From positions 434,001 through 498,000 of the forward strand of contig NZ_JAHKRR010000002.1 in the NCBI RefSeq assembly GCF_018863395.1: a stretch of 64,000 bases of DNA, in the 5' to 3' direction. This document shows, one piece after another, positions 373 to 14,884 of this stretch (position 1 is the stretch's first letter; each line of letters opens with the position of its first letter). This stretch comes from Sinomicrobium weinanense (lineage in GTDB: Bacteria; Bacteroidota; Bacteroidia; Flavobacteriales; Flavobacteriaceae). The notes under the pieces were generated by a model, which did not search any database, was not told the DNA's origin, and worked only from the letters and a program-made list of their open reading frames with translations. The position numbers and the translations under genes were made by a program.

Positions 373-3366
373 ATGAGCCTAACCACCGAAAACACCTTTG
401 AAATCGCTTTGGTACAATCGCTTGTCGAAAACGGCGGTTATATCCAGGGCAATGCAGAAGACTACAGCCCCGAGTTGGGTTTGTTTAAATACGAGGTCAT
501 TGCCTTTTTGCAACAATCGCAACCTAAAAAATGGGATAAAATAACCGCCATACACGGCGCCGATACCCACAATAGGGTCATCAATCGGCTCTGTAAGGAA
601 ATGGATTTACGCGGCAGCCTGGACGTATTGCGCAAAGGGTTTGTAGATTATGGCGTTCGGTTTCAAATGGCGTTTTTTAAGCCGGCTTCCGGCCTTAACC
701 CCGATGCGGTGGATTTGTACAATAAAAACAGCCTAAAGGTTTACCGTCAAATCTATTACAGCAACAAAAACAAAAACTCGGTAGATGTGGTGTTGGCCTT
801 AAACGGGATTCCGGTGGCCACCTTGGAACTTAAAAACCAGTTTACAGGACAGAACGTGGGCAATGCCCTAAAACAATACAGCACCACCAGAGACAACCGC
901 GAGCTGTTGTTTGCCTTTAAAAAACGGGCTTTGGTGCATTTTGCCGTAGATCAGGACGAAGTGTTTATGTGTACCAAACTGGAAGGTCACAAGACCTTTT
1001 GGCTTCCTTTCAATAAAGGTGACAACAATGGTAGAGGTAATCCGAAAAATCCGAATGGTTACCGCACGGCTTACCTGTGGGAGGATATTTTTGTTAAAGA
1101 CAGTTGGATGGAAATCCTGCAACGTTTTGTACACCTGCAAACAGAAGAAATAGAAACTAACGGCAAAACCTATAAAAAAGAAAAACTCATTTTTCCGCGT
1201 TACCACCAGTTGGATGTGGTCAGAAAAATCACTGGCGATGTTTACAGTGCTGGTGCCGGTAAAAACTATTTGGTACAGCATTCGGCCGGTTCGGGAAAAA
1301 GTAATTCCATTGCTTGGTTAGCTTACCGTTTGTCGGGCTTGCACAACCAAGAAAACAAACGGGTATTCGATTCTGTAATTGTAATAACAGACCGTCGGGT
1401 ACTGGACAAACAATTACAAGACACCATTTATCAGTTTGAACACAAACAAGGTGTAGTTCAAAAAATAGATAAGGACAGTACACAGTTGGCTAACGCTCTA
1501 GGTCAAGGCACCAATATTATCATCACTACTTTACAAAAATTCCCGTTTGTAATTGATAAAGTAGGTGAACTTCCCGACAGGAAATATGCGGTGTTGATAG
1601 ACGAAGCTCATAGTTCGCAAGGTGGTGAAGCTAGTAAAAAGATGAAAGAAGTCTTGACTACCAAAGACCTGGCCATGGCCGCCGAAGAAGAAGCCACCTA
1701 TGGTGATGCCGATTATAGTGGCGAAGATATGGTACGCGAGCAAGTAGAAAAATCTGCTGCAGCAAGAGGACAACAAGACAATATTTCTTTTTTTGCCTTT
1801 ACCGCCACTCCCAAATACAAAACCTTACAGGTGTTTGGTGTAAAAGGAAAAGACGGTAAGCCTAAGCCATTTCATTTGTATTCCATGCGTCAAGCCATTG
1901 AAGAAGGGTTTATTTTAGATGTATTACAAAACTACACTACTTATGAACTCTACTTTAAACTTACAAAGGCCATAGAAGACGATCCGGAACTCAATAAGAA
2001 AAAAGCATCCAAAGCCATTGGTAAATATGTATCACTACACCCGCACAACCTGGCACAGAAAACCGAAATTATCATTGAGCATTTCAGAAATATTGTTGCA
2101 AAGAAAATAGGAGGAAAAGCCAAGGCCATGGTAGTTTGCGGTTCACGCCTGCATGCCAAGCGTTATTTTGAAGAATTTGAAAAATACATCAAAGCCAAAG
2201 GCTACAACGAGGAGATAAAAATCCTGGTAGCTTTCTCTGGTAAAGTGATAGATGATAATTCCCCTGAAGGTGTTTCAGAACCGGAATTGACCGGATTCAG
2301 CGAAAAAGAATTGCCAACAGCGTTTGAAAAAGACGAATACAAAATTTTGATTGTAGCCAACAAATATCAAACAGGGTTCGATCAGCCCTTGCTTCATACT
2401 ATGTACGTAGATAAAAAGCTATCAGGGGTATTGGCCGTACAAACCCTATCTAGGCTCAATAGAACCTGTCCGGGCAAAGAAGACACCTTTGTATTGGATT
2501 TTGCTAACGACAGACAAACCATTCTGGATTCTTTCCAGCCATACTACGAAATAACCACCGTATCAGATGAAGTGGATGTAAACCACTTATATGATTTAAA
2601 AGCCCGATTGGATGAATTTCAAGTATATTGGGAGCAGGAAATAGAATCTTTTGTACAGGTGTATTTTAATCCTAACACAAAATTGAACACCCCAAAACAG
2701 CAAAAATACCTGTACCAATTTACCGATCCCGCAGTTGATCGATTTAAAGGGTTGGAGGAAGAAAAACAAGATGAATTTAAAAAAGGTTTGAGAACGTGGA
2801 CAAACCTTTATGCTTTTTTGGCTCAAATTATGCCTTTTGTAGATACCGATTTTGAACGATTTTTTGCTTATGCCAAGTTATTGCAAACCCGGTTACCTAA
2901 ACGGGAACTTTCGGAATCATTGCATTTGGATGACGAAGTGGCATTAGAATATTACCGCTTACAAAAAATTAAAGATGGTGCCATCGGTCTACAAAAAGAT
3001 GAAGATGGCGAGCTAAGCGGTACGTCTGAAGCAGGATTGAAAAAACCAAAAGAAGAAGACGCTCGTCTTTCAGAAATCATCAACGTCTTAAACGACCGCT
3101 TCGGTACTGAATTTGAAGAAGCCGACAAGCTATTTTTTGATCAGATAGAAGCTGAACTTATGGAAGACGAAACCTTACAGGCACAGGCTAAGGTTAACAA
3201 AATGGATACTTTTAAATTTGCCTTTAACGATAAGTTTATCGATAAACTTATAGGCCGTATGGATCAAAACCAGGAGATTTTTGAAAAAATCTTAGAAGAC
3301 GAGAGTTTTGGAGATTTAGTAAAAGAATGGATGATGATGAAAATTTATAAAAGATTGAATGGTTAG
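373..3366 (+). CDS. hsdR: Type I restriction endonuclease subunit R (HsdR)
   Basis: This is the motor and nuclease subunit of a type I restriction-modification complex, which translocates and cuts unmodified DNA. At 997 aa it has the usual full length. The N-terminal nuclease domain shows the PD-(D/E)xK pattern with D138, E152 and K154. The helicase part follows, with Walker A around residues 303-310 (HSAGSGKS), the DEAH box at 410-413, the FTATP motif near residue 475, and an SNF2/RecA-like second lobe with QTGFDQP and QTLSRLNRT. A C-terminal helical part for contact with HsdM ends the protein. No frameshift is seen. It follows an unknown gene by 3 bp; hsdM and hsdS are not in the window and are expected to the left. 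It is followed by a 12-bp inverted repeat and then AlbA_2-type genes. Confidence 0.97.
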   Translation: MSLTTENTFEIALVQSLVENGGYIQGNAEDYSPELGLFKYEVIAFLQQSQPKKWDKITAIHGADTHNRVINRLCKEMDLRGSLDVLRKGFVDYGVRFQMAFFKPASGLNPDAVDLYNKNSLKVYRQIYYSNKNKNSVDVVLALNGIPVATLELKNQFTGQNVGNALKQYSTTRDNRELLFAFKKRALVHFAVDQDEVFMCTKLEGHKTFWLPFNKGDNNGRGNPKNPNGYRTAYLWEDIFVKDSWMEILQRFVHLQTEEIETNGKTYKKEKLIFPRYHQLDVVRKITGDVYSAGAGKNYLVQHSAGSGKSNSIAWLAYRLSGLHNQENKRVFDSVIVITDRRVLDKQLQDTIYQFEHKQGVVQKIDKDSTQLANALGQGTNIIITTLQKFPFVIDKVGELPDRKYAVLIDEAHSSQGGEASKKMKEVLTTKDLAMAAEEEATYGDADYSGEDMVREQVEKSAAARGQQDNISFFAFTATPKYKTLQVFGVKGKDGKPKPFHLYSMRQAIEEGFILDVLQNYTTYELYFKLTKAIEDDPELNKKKASKAIGKYVSLHPHNLAQKTEIIIEHFRNIVAKKIGGKAKAMVVCGSRLHAKRYFEEFEKYIKAKGYNEEIKILVAFSGKVIDDNSPEGVSEPELTGFSEKELPTAFEKDEYKILIVANKYQTGFDQPLLHTMYVDKKLSGVLAVQTLSRLNRTCPGKEDTFVLDFANDRQTILDSFQPYYEITTVSDEVDVNHLYDLKARLDEFQVYWEQEIESFVQVYFNPNTKLNTPKQQKYLYQFTDPAVDRFKGLEEEKQDEFKKGLRTWTNLYAFLAQIMPFVDTDFERFFAYAKLLQTRLPKRELSESLHLDDEVALEYYRLQKIKDGAIGLQKDEDGELSGTSEAGLKKPKEEDARLSEIINVLNDRFGTEFEEADKLFFDQIEAELMEDETLQAQAKVNKMDTFKFAFNDKFIDKLIGRMDQNQEIFEKILEDESFGDLVKEWMMMKIYKRLNG

Positions 3367-3566: not shown

Positions 3567-5171
3567 ATGACCAAAGACCAACTTATAGCAAAATTAGCCG
3601 ATCTGGAATGGGAAGACTTTGAGGTAAAAGCCGCTAAAGGTGGATTGCCAAAAGACACATGGGAAACCGTTTCGGCTTTTTCCAATACCTCCGGGGGATG
3701 GCTGTTGTTTGGTATTAAACAAAATGGAAAACAATTTGAAATACAAGGCCTCAACAATCCTGAAAAAGTTGAACAGGATTTTTTAAATACCATTCGTTCG
3801 GGCAAGTTTAATGTATTTGTCCCCACCCAACAGGCTAAGCATAATATAGGTAGTAAAACAGTTTTGGCCTTTTATGTGCCGGTATCAAGAGACAAGCCGG
3901 TGTATTATAATAGTCTACAAAACACTTTTATTCGTAGGGGAAGTTCAGACCAACGAGCTACCAAAGAAGAAATTGATGCCATGTTCCGCGACCAAACCTT
4001 TGGAACCAAAACATCGGAATTGGCACCCAAAACCTCTAAAGCAGACTTGCATACCACATCACTAAAGCAGTACCGCGATTATATGGCACGCTTTAACCCC
4101 GATGTTAGCTATAACCGTTATGACGAAGATGAGTTTTTAACAAAGTTACGCATTGTTGATAATGAACAATTGACCTACGCCGGTTTGCTGTTTTTAGGAA
4201 AACGTGAAAGCATTGAAAAACATTTCCCTGATTTTAGGATCGATTTGCTCGAAATCCCGGGGACTACCATCACAGATGCTACAACCAATTACACTTTTCG
4301 GCTAGACGAATATGAAAACCTTTGGGACTATTATTTTGCCTGTTTCCAGCGTTTAAAACAAAAAGTGGATGTAGCATTCCAAATAACCAATCAGGGCTTT
4401 GGCCAAGAGCTTTCTCCAGGCTTAAAAGCCATTCGGGAAGCTTTGGTCAATATGCTAATGCACGCTGATTACTTTGCACCGGCGCACTCGCGTATCCGCA
4501 TTTTCACCAACCATATCGAGTTTTACAATCCGGGTGGACTGCCTAAACCTTTAGAAGAGTTAAAGGCTAAAGACTTGTCATTGCCCCGCAACCCGCTTAT
4601 TTCAAAATTATTCCGCATGGTACGCTTGGCCGAAAATGCCGGCTATGGCTTTGACAAAATCGAAACCAATTGGGAACAATACAACCATACAGCACCCGAG
4701 TATGATATTAGTTTTGATGCTACGATCTTAAAACTTTATACCCAAAAAGAGGGAGCTGGAGCCAAAACTTCGGAGAAACTTCGGGGAAACTTCGGAGAAA
4801 CTTCGGAGAAACTTCAGGAAGAACTTAAAAACAAACCAGCTAACATTGATTTGATTATAAGGCTATTGACTGATAACTACGAAAATTTCAAGATCTATAT
4901 CACTGAAAATTTCGGAGTCAGTTCGGGAACACTTCGGAAACACTTCGGAAACACTTCGGAAACGCTTCGGAAACATTTCGGAGACAAAGAAATGGTATTG
5001 TTATTACTTATTATATTCAATAAAGATATTACAGCTAAAGAGGCCGCTAAGGTTATAGGCGTTAGTGATAGAACCATAGAAACCTATTTTACCAAACTCA
5101 AATCAAAAGATATGATCGAACGTGTCGGCAGCGCCACCTTTGGCGGTTATTGGACCTTAAAAAAAGATTAA
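3567..5171 (+). CDS. AlbA_2 (Schlafen-type) ATP-binding protein with C-terminal winged helix
   Basis: The protein has 534 aa. Residues about 10-130 form an AlbA_2/Schlafen-type nucleic-acid-binding domain (FEVKAAKGG, then SGGWLLFGI). Residues about 290-385 form the RecG-like HATPase_c_4 domain (ALVNMLMHADY, then NPLISKLFRMVRLAENAGYGFDKI). Residues about 485-530 are a winged helix (TAKEAAKVIGVSDRTIETYF). The linker holds two tracts of 11-bp tandem repeats (residues 401-417 and 448-473), encoding 11-residue periods such as TLRKHFGNTSE. Because 11 is not a multiple of 3, a change in copy number would put the winged helix out of frame. The family is annotated as transcriptional regulator or putative DNA-binding protein and often lies beside restriction systems, as here with hsdR; its exact role is not known. 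No membrane segment is present. Confidence 0.85.
   Translation: MTKDQLIAKLADLEWEDFEVKAAKGGLPKDTWETVSAFSNTSGGWLLFGIKQNGKQFEIQGLNNPEKVEQDFLNTIRSGKFNVFVPTQQAKHNIGSKTVLAFYVPVSRDKPVYYNSLQNTFIRRGSSDQRATKEEIDAMFRDQTFGTKTSELAPKTSKADLHTTSLKQYRDYMARFNPDVSYNRYDEDEFLTKLRIVDNEQLTYAGLLFLGKRESIEKHFPDFRIDLLEIPGTTITDATTNYTFRLDEYENLWDYYFACFQRLKQKVDVAFQITNQGFGQELSPGLKAIREALVNMLMHADYFAPAHSRIRIFTNHIEFYNPGGLPKPLEELKAKDLSLPRNPLISKLFRMVRLAENAGYGFDKIETNWEQYNHTAPEYDISFDATILKLYTQKEGAGAKTSEKLRGNFGETSEKLQEELKNKPANIDLIIRLLTDNYENFKIYITENFGVSSGTLRKHFGNTSETLRKHFGDKEMVLLLLIIFNKDITAKEAAKVIGVSDRTIETYFTKLKSKDMIERVGSATFGGYWTLKKD
4767..4815 (+). repeat. 11-bp tandem repeat, tract 1, inside the AlbA_2 gene
   Basis: Four full copies and one partial copy of ACTTCGGAGAA run from 4767 (unit starts 4767, 4778, 4789, 4800, 4811). 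The unit has no stop codon in any forward frame, so the tract stays open whatever the frame. Confidence 0.9.
4909..4985 (+). repeat. 11-bp tandem repeat, tract 2, inside the AlbA_2 gene
   Basis: Seven consecutive 11-bp units related to ACTTCGGAAAC, with the three central ones (4931-4963) identical and the outer ones diverged. Translation cycles through three frames to give an 11-residue period. It ends about 35 bp before the winged-helix coding part. Confidence 0.92.
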
Positions 5172-5470
5172 AGTATACGATAAAGATTGTTCTAAGTTTT
5201 CTGACAATTTTTTACGGATAACCTTCTCAAAATCTACAAGTGGTGCAATAAGGTAGTGCAATAGGTGGTGCAATAGAAAGTTTAACTGAAAGACAGGTAG
5301 AAATCTTAGAATTAATAAAAGAAAACAATAAAATAGCTTACCGGGAAGTAGCCCAACGATTAGAAATAAACAATTCCGCTGTGCAAGCACACTTCGACAC
5401 TCTAAAAGAAAAGGACATCATCGAAAGAATTGGAGACACCAGAGGGTATTGGAAGATTTTAAAAAGATAA
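5172..5470 (+). pseudogene. C-terminal remnant of a second AlbA_2/RecG-like gene, frameshifted
   Basis: Directly after the AlbA_2 stop, an open stretch reads SDNFLRITFSKSTSGAI, then loses frame by one extra base inside a short tandem repeat (GTGCAATA copies at 5243, 5256 and 5268, spaced 13 and 12 bp). After the shift it continues GGAIESLTERQVEIL and a complete winged helix ending YWKILKR at 5470. The GGAI repeat followed by a LTERQ winged helix is typical of the C-terminus of AlbA_2/RecG-like proteins in Bacteroidota. No N-terminal or ATPase part precedes it; the stub at 3446-3550 may be the other end of the same gene. From 5471 to 5503 nothing is seen. Confidence 0.7.
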
Positions 5471-5503: not shown

Positions 5504-6097
5504 TTACAGTGCTTTTGCCATAATTTCCGCAATCCATTGTGGTGCCAATGCAATATCTTGCTTTAAATCTTTAATATCCTCTTTTTTTAACAATTGTATG
5601 ATTTTTTCTTGTTCTTCTGGAGACACCTTATCACTTCCTATATCCCGAAGCGCTTGCACCACAAGTTTTGACACCTTTCCGCTAAGGGCTAAGTTTTTAG
5701 GGGAAGTTCTTTTGAACTGTATGGTTCTATTACCAACTTTTATTGTTCTTGTCTTACCATCCGTATAATAAACCAATCTTAAAGGCACTTGTGTTGACAG
5801 GCCAAGGGCGTACTGCGCATAACTGCCCGAAGGCAATAATTTGGCCTTGTCCCTTTTTGCAATAGCCTTAGCTATTTCTTCTGCAGAAGGTAATATTTCC
5901 TGATTTAGTAACTCGCTTACTTTTGGTTTAGCATATATGCCATGAGCTACCCTTGACAAAACCTTCCTCTTCTCCAGCCGATGCAGAATAGTATGTATTG
6001 TGCTCTGATTTCCTAAGTCGATAAAATCGTCGGCAAAAAAAATAGTTCCTCCTTTTGCTTTATTTATCCTGGTTTCAATTTTATTATCTATGCTCAT
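5504..6097 (-). CDS. DUF6088 family protein, AbiEi-like antitoxin/regulator (orphan)
   Basis: The 197-aa protein (start chosen at MSIDNKIETRI, 10 codons inside the longest frame, because it matches the usual family start) has an N-terminal helix-turn-helix (GTIFFADDFIDLGNQSTIHTIL) and a C-terminal AbiEi-like domain (SGSYAQYALGLSTQVP, then VYYTDGK). DUF6088 proteins are related to the antitoxin of type IV AbiE systems and normally stand next to an AbiEii nucleotidyltransferase toxin. No such toxin is present: downstream is only the AlbA_2 remnant, and upstream is a broken XRE gene. It therefore looks like an orphan antitoxin or a stand-alone regulator. The protein is basic, soluble and without signal peptide. 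Confidence 0.8.
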   Translation of the reverse strand: MSIDNKIETRINKAKGGTIFFADDFIDLGNQSTIHTILHRLEKRKVLSRVAHGIYAKPKVSELLNQEILPSAEEIAKAIAKRDKAKLLPSGSYAQYALGLSTQVPLRLVYYTDGKTRTIKVGNRTIQFKRTSPKNLALSGKVSKLVVQALRDIGSDKVSPEEQEKIIQLLKKEDIKDLKQDIALAPQWIAEIMAKAL

Positions 6098-6217
6098 ACG
6101 TATAGTAATTGAGCAATAAATGTACAAAACATGAAAGATATAGACATACTATTCCTTTCAAAAAAATTTAAAATATCTTACAAATCAAGGATGATATCCT
6201 CTGGCAAACATTTCGCT

Positions 6218-8101: not shown

Positions 8102-8432
8102 CTTAGTAAAAATTCGAGAACATTGCTAAAATTTAGTACATTACTCGAAATTTTCCGGCCAATTACCACCAGTGACGAATTGCGTTCGATTGCGAACGAT
8201 TATGAACGATTGCGAACGATTAAGCCAAGAAAAAAAGACGATTCTCTTGTATTTAATGGACCATCAAGAAATATCCCGAAAAAAAGCCTCTTCCCTGATT
8301 AATTCAAAGAATACCAAAACTTATGAAGTCCTTACCGAATTAGTCAACGAAAAATTTATCGACAAACAAGGTCAGGGTCGTGCCACATTCTATACCCTGA
8401 AAAGAAAGGAGGGTGAAAACAAGAAGTGGTGA
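8102..8432 (+). pseudogene. C-terminal remnant of a third AlbA_2-type gene, out of frame at a 10-bp repeat
   Basis: One frame reads LEIFRPITTSDELRSIAND up to the repeat at 8181-8220. The winged-helix part (EKKTILLYLMDHQEIS onward, ending KKW at 8432) lies in another frame, seen as an 86-codon frame with ATG at 8172. The break is exactly explained by the 10-bp repeat: with one unit fewer, both parts would join in a single open frame. No AlbA_2 or ATPase domain precedes it; the Coa1-like gene ends at 8069. The 86-codon frame could be expressed alone as a small winged-helix protein, but a remnant is more likely. Confidence 0.6.
8181..8220 (+). repeat. 10-bp tandem repeat (4 copies) before a winged-helix frame
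   Basis: Units TGCGTTCGAT, TGCGAACGAT, TATGAACGAT and TGCGAACGAT follow each other directly. The length of 10 is not a multiple of 3, so copy number decides the reading frame downstream. Confidence 0.9.
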
Positions 8433-9010
8433 ATGGAAACTTATAGAGGGTAACAAAAAAATACAGCTTTTACTTCTCCCCAAATAAATCGTCAAAAAAG
8501 GCAATTAAAGTCTTACACCAAAATTACACCTCCCCCACTCCAACCCCTGTAAATATGAGGGATGAAAGATATTGTATCGGTAAATAAAAATGTCTTCATC
8601 CCGGTTTTTATCCCCTTTCATATAAAACCTATAACCAGGCATATAAAATCACAGCTACTGAACATAGTTATCTGCATGTTAGTTATAGCCGCTCCGGTGA
8701 TAATTTTTATTTATTGATCTTTCCTTGTGTTTTTTGGTTTTCGATGTATCAGTTCCCTTTTTTTGACGGATTGATCCCTGAAGGCTGGCTTCTGAATATT
8801 GCCATAAGTAAATTGCTCAACACAAAGCATAAAAAACTATTTGCATAACTGGTTGGGGGCAGTATTTCTCTTCAAAATACCAAACCTTTACTTTTCCTTC
8901 CCCGGTGATCCGGAAGCGTTTCCGGTTATGGAAACTAGCGAAATTTTTATACCCGGACAAGCCCGAATAGTCCCATTTAAGGGAATGCGTATACACCGAA
9001 CCGGTTTGGG
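8433..9010. other. Intergenic stretch without gene
   Basis: No convincing coding frame is present on either strand. The only structure seen is a loose inverted repeat GGGATGAA (8559-8566) with TTCATCCC (8595-8602). From about 8900 the sequence becomes rich in ACCGGTTT and GCATAC words and grades into the repeat field. Confidence 0.5.
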
Positions 9011-9530
9011 TATGCAGCAAACCAAACCCCTTAAGCGGCATACCCATCCCCTTACGCTGCAAACGTAAACCGGTTAGCCGCTTAAGCAATTGCTTATGCG
9101 GCATAAGCAACCCGGTTAGCGGTCAACGTAACTGCGTATGCAGCAAACCAAACCCCTTACGCCGCATACCCATTCCTTTACGCTGCAAACGTAAACCGGT
9201 TAGCCGCTTAAGCAATTGCTTATGCGGCATAAGCAACCCGGTTAGCGGTCAACGTAACTGCGTATGCAGCAAACCAAACCCCTTACGCCGCATACCCATT
9301 CCTTTACGCTGCAAACGTAAACCGGTTAGCTGCTAAAGCAATTGCGTATGAATTCATAAGCAACCCGGTTAGCGGTCAACGTAACTGCGTATGCGGCAAA
9401 TCGGATCCCTTAAGCCGCAAACGTAAACCAGTTAGCCGCTTAAGCAACCGGGGAAGCGGTAAAAGCAATCCCTTATGCGGCAAACCCAACCCGGTTAGCA
9501 GCTCAAGGGAACGGGTTAGCCGTATACCGG
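9011..9530. repeat. 126-bp tandem repeat field with palindromes
   Basis: Two identical 126-bp units occupy 9061-9186 and 9187-9312. A partial unit precedes them (from about 9011) and a diverged unit follows (9313 to about 9418), after which shorter pieces such as CCGGTTAGC and TTATGCGGCA continue to about 9530. Each unit contains the perfect palindrome TAAGCAATTGCTTA, overlapped by the hairpin TTGCTTATG-CGG-CATAAGCAA. All frames carry stop codons, so it is not coding. There are no spacers of the CRISPR kind. Function is unknown; identity of two units indicates recent duplication or ongoing homogenisation. Confidence 0.9.
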
Positions 9531-11353: not shown

Positions 11354-14300
11354 TTATTTTACAATGATCTTAAATGACTTTTGCAGGCGGTCTGTTATAC
11401 ATTGGAGGATATACACCCCGGGGGGCATGCCTGAAACCTTCATCGTACTATCTTCCCTATCCGTAAAGAACTGCCTGACCTGCTGACCGGAGTGGTTATA
11501 CACCCGCACCTGCATGGTCTCCAGTTCTTCCCTGGGAATACTGGCCTGGATGTTAATGGTATTTCCCGTAAGTACGGGATTCGGATACACGATAATCTCC
11601 CCGCTATGCTGCAATTCTATTTTCATAGGGCAGGTACGCAATATTTCTCCGTCTGTGGTGGTCATTTCCACCTCATAGGTGGCATCGGGGTCCAGGAGAT
11701 CCGTGCTGTTGTCCCCGGCAGAATAGTATTGCCCGCCACCGATAAAGGTGCCGTTTTTGTACCATTTGTAGGCCATAAAGTTGTAACCACCATTGGTCTG
11801 CGGATTGTTATTGACCAGTAAGACATTATCGAACTTCCGGATCACTATATCTTCAAAATCAAATCGTCGTTCCACCACAACTTTATAGGTTTTGGTAGCA
11901 CTGCCGTCTTCGGAGGTCACAGTTATTTCTTCCGTATAAATGCCCGGTCGGGACAATTCCATGGTAAAACGATGTGCCGGACTCACCATAGCATTCGCTT
12001 CGGTCTCTATTTCTACCATTACCGAGCCGGCCATATTATCGCAATCGACCACATAACCGGTCTCCGGTCCGGGATTCTCAAAGGTTTTTTCGGCTATGCG
12101 CAGGACACGGATAGAAGCATCATCACTACTGATCCGTAAGGTGCGGTTTACGGGGGTGGCAGGCAGGAAATTATGGTTTCCTTCCTGGCTGGCGGTGATC
12201 GTTATTTCTCCTGATGAAAGCAGGGTTACCTCTCCGTCGGGTGTCACTGTTGCCGGCGGTTCGGTGCCATCATAGGTATAGGTATATACTATCGGCAACC
12301 CGGAAGTTGCGTAGGCTTCCAATAAAAATCCGGAAGTGCTTCCGAGGTTTCGGGCAGGTATGGCGTCAAATACAATTTCCTGAGCGGCCTTGTGTACGGT
12401 CAGTATAGCCGTGAGTTCCATATCCTCGTAGTTTATGCCTCCGTCTATATTGGCCGTGACTTCCTGGGTTCCCGCATCGGTCCGGCCATTGTTTTCATAG
12501 GTCACTGTTACGCCTTCCGGTAACTCACCCGTAATGGTAAGTGTGTATTCTGTACCGTCGTAGGTGAACTCGCCATCGTTGAATGCAATGTTGTCATAAC
12601 CTGCTGTTGTAATGGTCAGGATACCATTTTCAAAGGTCATGGCGTAGTTGTTTCCTGCCGAAAGTGTTCCCTGCGTAATAACATACTCTCCCACCGCTTC
12701 GCCCGATTCACGTTCCGGCATACCCGTAAACATATCATCGCCAATCAGTGTCGGGCTTACTGTATAGGTCAGTTCGGGGTCGGCTATGCCATAGGCTTTT
12801 TCCTGGTTGTCGGCTGTTACGGTAACAGACAACGGAGTAACAGTCAATTCAGCGGTCAGTTCCATATCCTCATAGTTCTCCCCGCCATCAATCCGGGCTG
12901 TTACGGTTTGGGTCCCTGCATCTGTCCTACCGTTGTTTTGATAAGCCACTGATGTCCCTTCCGGTAATTCGCCTGTGATGGACAGGGTATGCTCTGTGCC
13001 GTCATAAGTGTAATCCGCATTATTAAATGTGATGTTTTCATAATCTGCCGGAACAATGGTCAATATAGCTCCTTCATAGGTGATGGTATAATTATCCCCG
13101 GCAGTCAGTGTTCCCTGTGTAATGGCGTATTCTCCTACGGCTTCTCCCGATTCACGTTCCGGGATGCCCGTAAACATATCATCGCCAATCAGTGCCGGGC
13201 TTACTGTATAGGTCAGTTCTGGGTCCGCCATGCCATAGGCTTTTTCCTGGTTGTCGGCTGTTACGGTAACAGACATTGGAATAATAGTCAATTCAGCGGT
13301 CAGTTCCATATCCTCATAGTTCTCCCCGCCATCAATCCTGGCTGTTACGGTTTGGGTCCCTGCATCTGTCCTACCGTTGTTTTGGTAAGCCACTGATGTC
13401 CCTTCGGGTAATTCGCCTGTGATGGCAAGACTGTGTTCTGTGCCGTCATAGGTGAACTCCACATTGTTAAATGTAATGTTCCCGTAGTCCGCCGGGGTAA
13501 TAGCGAAGGTCCCTTCTTCAAAGGTGATCGCATAATTATTGCCGGCCGTTAATGTTCCCTGTATAATCATATATTCACCTACGGCCTCACCGGCATCACG
13601 TTCCAGCATTCCCGTAAAGCTGTCGCCACCGATCAACATGTCCGCTGTGTAGGTCAGTTCGGGATCATCCGTGCCATAGGTTTTTTGTTGGTTATCTGCC
13701 GTTACCGTAATGGATCGTGGCGTTATTGTCAGGTCGGCGGTCAGTTCCATGTCTTCGTAGTTCTCCCCGCCATCGATCTCTGCCGTTACGGTTTGTGTTC
13801 CGGCATCTGTTCTGCCATTGTTTTGGTAAGTTACCGATGTACCTTCCGGTAATTCGCCTGTAATGACAAGTGTGTGTTCTGTACCATCATAGGTAAACTC
13901 CCCGGCGTTAAATGTAATATCCTCATAATCCGCAGCTGTTATCGTGAGAGTGCCTTCCTCAAAAGTAATGGCATAATTGTTCCCGGCGGTCAGTGTACCT
14001 TGTGTGATAGTATAGGTACCTACGGTTTCACCTGTTTCACGTTCCAGGGTACCCGTAAAGGCATCGTCACCAAGCAGTGGTGGGGTTATCATATAGGTCA
14101 GTTCGGGGTCGTCTGCCCCATAGACCCTGGACTTATCTTCCGCCGTTACGGTAATGGCATAGGGTGTGACCGCAAAGGCATTATTGTCTTCCTCAAAAGT
14201 GATATCGTAGTTGGCGGCCTTCTCACCTTCAAATGTCAGGATAATATCATATGCTCCTGCATCTTCGCCTTCCCCGCGCGAGCTACCGGAAATGATTTCT

Positions 14301-14884
14301 GTCAGGGCATCCCCTTCCTCCAATTCAGATCCTTCGGCCAGGGCATAACCGTATTCACCCGGATCGTCTTCTCCGTAAACCTTGGCCTGACCGGGTTCCG
14401 GTACAACGGTGATCGCCCCGGGAGCTACCGAAACCGTAAAACCCAGCGTGGCCGCTTCGAAGTTATCCGTTTCTGCCTGCTGTACGGTCAGCGTAGCGGT
14501 GCCGGCCTGTTGCGCAATTACCGTTTCCAGGTCATCCAGGTTCAGTACGGGATTATCGTTCTCTCCAAAACCGTAGGTGATTTCCGCGTTGGGATCACTA
14601 CTGGCAAAAACCAGTGTTCCGCCATCGCCATAGCCCAGTGAAAGTCCTGCTGCGGGATCGATATCCGTACCATTCCACGAGGCTGACAATTCCGGTACGC
14701 CTTTGGCTACCGTTACCGTTATTTCGGCCCGTAATTCATCCGGATTGAGAAAGTAGGGGTCATCACCCGGTTCCGGTAACACCAGCGGCACTGTAAATAC
14801 ATAGGTCCCTGCGGTTTCCCCGTCATATGTTCCGCCTTCGGGTTCCTGCAGGGTCCAGTTACCGGTATTTCCATCCAGTGCCAC
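11354..14884 (-). CDS. C-terminal part of a giant T9SS adhesin (MBG repeats and sorting domain)
   Basis: This 1176-codon frame (GTG at 14884 is only its first possible start) continues the gene that begins at 17985 and is separated from it by a frameshift at about 14920-14932. It carries Ig-like and MBG-type domains with the signature YDGTEHTL and DPELTYT, including nearly identical 148-residue units (444 bp). A cadherin-like/Ig part follows, and it ends in a type IX secretion sorting domain (IIVYPNPVLTGNTINI, then GVYILQC and SFKIIVK). Such proteins are exported by T9SS and attached to the cell surface for adhesion. On its own this part has no signal peptide and cannot be exported. The barrel gene follows after 15 bp. 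Confidence 0.8.
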   Translation of the reverse strand: MALDGNTGNWTLQEPEGGTYDGETAGTYVFTVPLVLPEPGDDPYFLNPDELRAEITVTVAKGVPELSASWNGTDIDPAAGLSLGYGDGGTLVFASSDPNAEITYGFGENDNPVLNLDDLETVIAQQAGTATLTVQQAETDNFEAATLGFTVSVAPGAITVVPEPGQAKVYGEDDPGEYGYALAEGSELEEGDALTEIISGSSRGEGEDAGAYDIILTFEGEKAANYDITFEEDNNAFAVTPYAITVTAEDKSRVYGADDPELTYMITPPLLGDDAFTGTLERETGETVGTYTITQGTLTAGNNYAITFEEGTLTITAADYEDITFNAGEFTYDGTEHTLVITGELPEGTSVTYQNNGRTDAGTQTVTAEIDGGENYEDMELTADLTITPRSITVTADNQQKTYGTDDPELTYTADMLIGGDSFTGMLERDAGEAVGEYMIIQGTLTAGNNYAITFEEGTFAITPADYGNITFNNVEFTYDGTEHSLAITGELPEGTSVAYQNNGRTDAGTQTVTARIDGGENYEDMELTAELTIIPMSVTVTADNQEKAYGMADPELTYTVSPALIGDDMFTGIPERESGEAVGEYAITQGTLTAGDNYTITYEGAILTIVPADYENITFNNADYTYDGTEHTLSITGELPEGTSVAYQNNGRTDAGTQTVTARIDGGENYEDMELTAELTVTPLSVTVTADNQEKAYGIADPELTYTVSPTLIGDDMFTGMPERESGEAVGEYVITQGTLSAGNNYAMTFENGILTITTAGYDNIAFNDGEFTYDGTEYTLTITGELPEGVTVTYENNGRTDAGTQEVTANIDGGINYEDMELTAILTVHKAAQEIVFDAIPARNLGSTSGFLLEAYATSGLPIVYTYTYDGTEPPATVTPDGEVTLLSSGEITITASQEGNHNFLPATPVNRTLRISSDDASIRVLRIAEKTFENPGPETGYVVDCDNMAGSVMVEIETEANAMVSPAHRFTMELSRPGIYTEEITVTSEDGSATKTYKVVVERRFDFEDIVIRKFDNVLLVNNNPQTNGGYNFMAYKWYKNGTFIGGGQYYSAGDNSTDLLDPDATYEVEMTTTDGEILRTCPMKIELQHSGEIIVYPNPVLTGNTINIQASIPREELETMQVRVYNHSGQQVRQFFTDREDSTMKVSGMPPGVYILQCITDRLQKSFKIIVK
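12400..13950 (-). repeat. 444-bp tandem repeats coding for MBG domain pairs
   Basis: Corresponding points such as CATAGTTCTCCCCGCCATCA recur 444 bp apart (12871 and 13315), giving about three and a half copies of a 148-residue unit. Neighbouring copies are nearly identical at the DNA level, so recombination between them could change the length of the adhesin. Confidence 0.85.

Follow-up and report, generated by a model that had tools for sequence, protein, structure and literature searches.

The window analysed here, a 64,000-nucleotide stretch of the Sinomicrobium weinanense genome (contig NZ_JAHKRR010000002.1, positions 434,001 to 498,000), carries the hsdR of a type I restriction-modification locus, whose hsdM and hsdS are situated further upstream in the genome and which is closed by a gene containing two arrays of 11-bp tandem repeats. 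The order at the locus is hsdM, a GHKL ATPase gene, hsdS, the gene of a NACHT protein, hsdR, the array gene and, on the opposite strand, an AbiEi-like gene. The product of the array gene contains an SLFN_AlbA_2 domain at amino acids (aa) 14-131 (PF04326, E=1.6e-16), whose profile is also matched by Schlafen chains in a profile search, and a HATPase_c_4 domain at aa 308-382 (PF13749, E=4.7e-15); judging only from this architecture, the protein may be an RNase. A Pfam scan of the protein gave no winged helix-turn-helix (wHTH) match; its structure model shows a C-terminal wHTH with three helices (aa 473-484, 490-497 and 501-513) and wing strands, which aligns with the wHTHs of the homologues used below for the comparison of helices and repeat units. 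The model has a mean predicted local distance difference test (pLDDT) score of 64.7 overall; scores are about 68-86 across aa 471-530 and poor in the AlbA_2 part. The recognition helix, modelled at aa 501-513, starts S500-D501-R502-T503-I504-E505 (from nucleotide 5064 on).

A sequence-only reading of the stretch had placed two 11-bp tracts between the ATPase domain and the wHTH of this gene, beside hsdR, with three identical units in the centre. Tandem Repeats Finder (TRF) recovered both tracts in that position (Table 1; about aa 401-417 and 449-473), hsdR is the upstream neighbour, and three consecutive units of the second tract, in the phase ACTTCGGAAAC, are indeed identical.

Table 1. Features of the array gene and its surroundings, in window coordinates.
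Feature	Position	Strand	Basis and remarks
SLFN_AlbA_2 + HATPase_c_4 + repeat linker + C-terminal wHTH gene	3567..5171	+	Open reading frame (ORF), 534 aa
First array, 11-bp units AAACTTCGGAG, 4.6 copies, 95% matches	4765..4815	+	TRF; proposed sites for the gene's own wHTH
Second array, 11-bp units ACTTCGGAAAC, 6.9 copies, 86% matches	4911..4986	+	TRF; immediately 5' of the wHTH
wHTH of the array gene	4986..5168	+	Structure model; about aa 474-534
Relic 12-bp array of another class (GGTGGTGCAATA, 3 copies)	5240..5276	+	TRF
Orphan wHTH	5264..5468	+	HTH_24, E=2.4e-9; shares the frame of the 12-bp array and follows an in-frame stop
hsdR, type I restriction subunit	373..3366	+	HSDR_N and T1R_D3-like domains; upstream of the array gene
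DUF6088/AbiEi-like gene	5504..6127	-	Pfam; neighbour
Small ORF whose start lies in a 10-bp array (TTGCGAACGA, 8179-8221, 4.3 copies)	8172..8432	+	Helix-turn-helix-like by eye

Arrays with a period of 10-12 bp were seen near the 3' end of many homologues (an uncounted look at 27 of 149 family members). The homologues counted below include loci from one longer list of places, of which 30 and then 80 more were covered. In the first set, a tail array was found in 100 of 139 complete genes, compared with 1/136 in the gene body and 2/246 at the ends of other ORFs; dinucleotide shuffling of the homologous regions (139 regions x 20 = 2780 sequences) gave any array at the same threshold in 0.36%, and the tracts lie far beyond chance. 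For the enlarged set, 248 matched ORFs were reduced to 235 that reach the ATPase end, to 232 unique ones and, after seven open-ended ones were dropped, to 225 AlbA_2 + GHKL-ATPase genes. A head-to-tail array lies within the gene, beside the C-terminal wHTH, in 126 of them (controls: 3/171 for the last 400 nt of other ORFs, 1/225 for gene bodies), and repeats do recur at the homologous position, a point on which the sequence-only reading was right. Their period is 12 bp in 97 genes, 11 bp in 21 and 21 bp in five, with 19, 20 and 24 bp occurring once each and 9, 15 and 18 bp absent from the 126. In-gene arrays cluster among the closer relatives L063-L143 (77/82 genes, as against 49/143 others). 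A further 29 of the 225 genes lack an in-gene array and have one within 150 bp past the stop codon, 70 have neither, and none of the 13 genes with a tail too short to hold a wHTH has an array. Counted over all genes, downstream arrays accompany 46/225, as compared with 13/171 control ORFs, where the periods are scattered. In a long subfamily (L144, L150, L005), repeats of about 21 bp, or two helical turns, precede the last domain. The homologue on an E. coli IncC plasmid (L145), flanked by a TrlF-like ATPase gene and hsdS, ends shortly after the ATPase, with no wHTH seen and no TRF array. At L093, 13.9 copies of the 12-bp unit AGTTAGTGAAGG lie about 102 bp past the stop, ahead of a pglX-like frame (by eye) and with no recognisable wHTH.

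The same class of unit may be coding or non-coding: ACTAGGGA occurs inside L097 and L136 and at and behind the stop in L007, and GTGGGT-type units lie inside L006 and behind L008 and L047. Coding arrays prefer 12 over 11 bp (97:19), whereas non-coding ones prefer 10-11 over 12 bp (16:8; p=2e-6, with two cut genes and two 13-bp arrays left out and L117 included). A 12-bp unit preserves the reading frame, and 10-11 bp is close to one turn of the DNA helix.

On the sequences compared, the unit is predictable from the recognition helix of the adjoining wHTH: the helix residue E goes with GG in the unit in 25/26 cases, and K with CC in 10/12. The peptide KTTQ is encoded in 13 loci, and at ten of these, which come from several phyla of both bacteria and archaea (one species supplies two of the loci), 29/29 copies have the form AAAACTACCCAG, the probability under local codon use being 0.01-0.04 for each; the three loci with the helix RSAIAK have ACT ACA CAG (L069, L070) or ACC ACA CAG (L072, one copy) instead. 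Likewise, among nine KTSE loci, three RAIEM helices go with ACT TCG and two RSIER helices with ACG TCG, the remaining four being single or other forms. The comparison indicates that the DNA bases rather than the peptide are conserved, the match with the helix extending to synonymous sites. A helix rule trained on coding 12-bp arrays was applied to 26 cases of 11-bp, downstream and relic arrays, including four added relics: at least three of five helix residues were shared in 24 of them, and the nearest-helix similarity was 0.81, compared with an average of 0.68 (permutation p=0.001). The percentile is just 0.50-0.67 for six of these 24 (L050, L092, L078, L090, L177 and L117), and L117 is a relic array picked by mistake.

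These data bear on the simplest alternative, according to which the arrays are plain peptide linker repeats or products of neutral slippage. Low-complexity linkers are common and the copies are often identical (44/116 arrays at 100%); however, arrays occur in non-coding DNA too, the 11-bp arrays yield no repeated tetrapeptide, and the synonymous bases common to archaea and bacteria track the helix. We regard this alternative as extremely improbable.

Array and wHTH appear to be exchanged between effector genes as a single unit. In 14 pairs, all of them L077 or L084 compared with the relatives L074, L075, L079-L082 and L085, the ATPases are 88-91% identical but the wHTHs only 6-18%, and the arrays differ. 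In three swapped pairs, DNA identity is about 0.73-0.89 up to the ATPase end and drops there to about 0.42-0.63, while in the same-class pair L074/L085 it falls off only slowly. Further 10-13 bp arrays near genes with an in-gene array are found downstream in 26/116 and upstream in 5/125 cases, not all of them relic-like; a wHTH match is found downstream in 6/116 and upstream in 1/125, one of the six (L066) being the gene's own frame-shifted wHTH. Modules are stacked in L085 and L095, and two of the L095 modules have an identical 3' end. The 12-bp array behind the stop codon of the window gene, together with the orphan wHTH, whose helix NNSAVQAH fits the GGTGGT class, reads as a displaced array and wHTH module and as the sole relic in the window. 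The small ORF at 8172-8432 gave no Pfam or NCBIfam match and may be a second orphan module, of a different class.

The arrays might also be recombination sites that enable the exchange. The swaps themselves, the identical 3' end of two stacked L095 modules and the downstream excess of extra arrays would agree with this, but swapped modules bear different arrays, so the array provides no shared homology, and base identity follows the recognition helix. We consider such a role very improbable.

The module is also carried by unrelated effectors. Two tandem units of the RSIER class, searched against 395 genomes, gave six matches in five genomes, and the reversed control gave none; all matches come from one family (two genera), and L251, a second match in the place of L250, is counted within the five loci. 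At all five loci (L246-L250), the array lies directly 5' of a wHTH of the predicted helix class, STRSIERN at four loci and SNRTIERN at one, and the effector is a Fic protein, as called by Pfam Fic in two scanned proteins, by PADLOC SoFic in one scanned protein and by motif in the others. The array has two unit copies in L248, three in L247, L249 and L250, and four in L246, and array length thus varies between related species. An HsdR-like frame (by eye) lies behind the Fic gene of L246. The KTTQ-unit pattern had no match in the 395 genomes, and the sole match of the KTVE-unit pattern in 119 genomes (G195:C20:131100-131147) falls inside the stretch of L168, a gene known beforehand.

The sequence-only reading had proposed an on/off or specificity switch, in which slippage of the 11-bp array moves the wHTH in and out of frame and toggles DNA binding, and had pointed to the stop-free unit. 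Neither window unit holds a stop in any of the three forward frames, but this follows of necessity and lends a switch no support: an 11-bp array of at least three copies within an ORF is stop-free in every frame because 11 mod 3 = 2. The length of the window array does set the reading frame, whereas the 97 twelve-bp homologues are frame-neutral; the window copy of the wHTH is in frame. Fewer than 45 aa follow the array, so that the wHTH is cut, in 2/21 eleven-bp genes (L066 and L071) and in 0/97 twelve-bp genes (Fisher p=0.03, post hoc), and in L066 the frame is broken at the 11-bp array with a complete wHTH in another frame behind it. Both genes are metagenome-assembled, however, so that their repeat length may be wrong, and the break in L071 is unlocated. 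Frame cycling was rejected as a general purpose of the arrays, since most are 12-bp (97/126 in-gene units) or non-coding, past the stop or before the start, and a slippage device has no need of a unit tied to the recognition helix. A contingency switch is therefore quite improbable as an explanation of the arrays; in the 11-bp subgroup, the window included, frame switching is possible but incidental. What holds of the proposed switch is the tie to DNA-binding specificity.

Short 11-12 bp arrays lie directly before the start codon in 7/7 Bacillota genes examined (four wHTH types); the search for them used a relaxed threshold (score 36) and no shuffled control, and the two units of L243 were found by eye and not by TRF. 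The genes are five from Streptococcus satellite phages (two wHTH types), one from a Staphylococcus plasmid and one from a Lactobacillus iners plasmid, the last two with two records each. Paired records with the same annotated protein accession differ in their arrays, with 4 vs 8 blocks in Staphylococcus and 7 vs 4 in L. iners. On the L. iners plasmids (L151 and L239, respectively), each block consists of 2-4 copies of TAATCGTG[AT]G 5' of the same gene. As these arrays are non-coding, such strain variation cannot act through frame. The one Fusobacteria gene examined has no array before its start, and promoter sites in the main clade amount to five matches in three loci, too few for a clear signal.

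In the window's genome, the 22-bp two-unit pattern (at most three mismatches) matches nine times in the gene and once elsewhere (reversed control, 1 + 1). A wider regulon was rejected on this single outside match, the search having been made with paired units and not with single 11-bp sites.

From these results, we consider it likely that the repeats are DNA binding sites of the adjacent wHTH, that array and wHTH make up one exchanged module, and that the module probably serves autoregulation in cis. Array, helix-matched pairing, module exchange and relics were computed directly; of the parts inferred from sequence, physical binding of the wHTH to its own array is very likely, and for autoregulation as the use of the array we see about even chances. 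The gene would hold a DNA address read by its own product, with head-to-tail wHTH sites next to the wHTH code. The swapping of array and wHTH as a unit between Schlafen/AlbA_2-GHKL ATPases and Fic proteins would keep site and reader matched, and displaced modules can linger past the stop codon as relics. Once bound, the protein would block its own gene's transcription: at the promoter in genes with an upstream array, as in the Bacillota examined, and in the others by acting as a roadblock inside or past the gene. We prefer autoregulation because the Bacillota arrays precede the start and the window's genome holds no second such array.

The main rival is a tether or guard, in which the effector sits idle on its own locus and is freed by an attack on that DNA or by its unwinding or loss. 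The confinement of the two-unit pattern to the gene, save for one scattered match, shows no regulon in the window's genome and agrees with this, as does the nature of the carriers, which are Schlafen-type and Fic-type, several of them within defence loci. The Bacillota arrays before the start, however, suit regulation, and several array genes lie among housekeeping genes; we hold a tether to be unlikely. Returning to autoregulation by bound sites, we lean towards a wider form of it: a portable self-addressing module, in which a wHTH and its own sites travel among unrelated effectors (Schlafen-GHKL, Fic), stack as relics and record, in bacteria as in archaea, a helix-to-DNA code, each gene being its own target and thus private, cross-talk-free control of paralogous defence effectors.

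Among the neighbours of homologues (30 proteins scanned in Pfam), some belong to BREX (bacteriophage exclusion), HsdR/S/M, AbiEii or Piwi; others are FeoB, Hsp70, threonyl-tRNA synthetase and similar proteins, and a few have no Pfam match. A roadblock of downstream restriction genes was rejected as a universal role, since neighbours of the FeoB, Hsp70 and threonyl-tRNA synthetase kind occur too. At L160, a Piwi-domain gene comes next after the gene with the array. The viral contigs searched gave one locus, and a comparison of E. coli strains yielded no match, either in near mode with a gene from Salmonella or in distant mode with an archaeal one. Elsewhere in the window, 9006-9419 is densely filled with nested tandem repeats (42, 84 and 126 bp), and 444-bp repeats (3.6 copies, 12513-14110) lie within a large minus-strand ORF (11354-14884).

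If this interpretation is true, many defence genes that are so far poorly described would spell out the DNA they target, since the site lies beside the domain that reads it, and together they would offer an extensive natural collection of data on the winged-helix recognition code. Specificity would be predictable from helix residues, giving ready-made orthogonal protein-site pairs, and could change without breaking regulation, since the site moves along with its reader. Repeats that resemble a phase switch yet mostly are not one would also be accounted for.

The protein architecture is already known: Schlafen-family RNases with a minimal histidine kinase and a wHTH are described near BREX and BREX-related loci (PMC12839542), and in the passages available they are alike by description (Schlafen/AlbA_2 + GHKL ATPase + wHTH). 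The likeness to BREX extends to L063, L067, L069 and L086, with brxC upstream and/or an Eco57I-type methylase gene (probably pglX-like) downstream. The difference is that those passages name no DNA tandem repeats or cognate sites for these proteins, and in the part of the literature covered, which does not include preprints, no account of either in these genes was found. Among known structures, the best fold match is 3lmm (DIP2311 of Corynebacterium diphtheriae; E=1.4e-14, TM-score only 0.34-0.39), which is also the second profile match, and the best profile match is 2kyy, a RecG-related protein; by their titles, to which this comparison is limited, neither concerns DNA sites. The SoFic-type Fic proteins (PADLOC SoFic, Pfam Fic) of L246-L250 share the array and wHTH module with an unrelated effector domain. 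Tandem sites beside the gene of their binder are also found in the iterons to which plasmid Rep proteins bind, and in autoregulated toxin-antitoxin operators. In contrast to these, the sites described here often lie inside coding sequence, next to their presumed reader, and are swapped along with it. In HsdS, specificity is altered by exchange of target-recognition domains, likewise a swap of a DNA-binding module; no cognate site is known to travel with the HsdS domain, whereas here the cognate array moves too.
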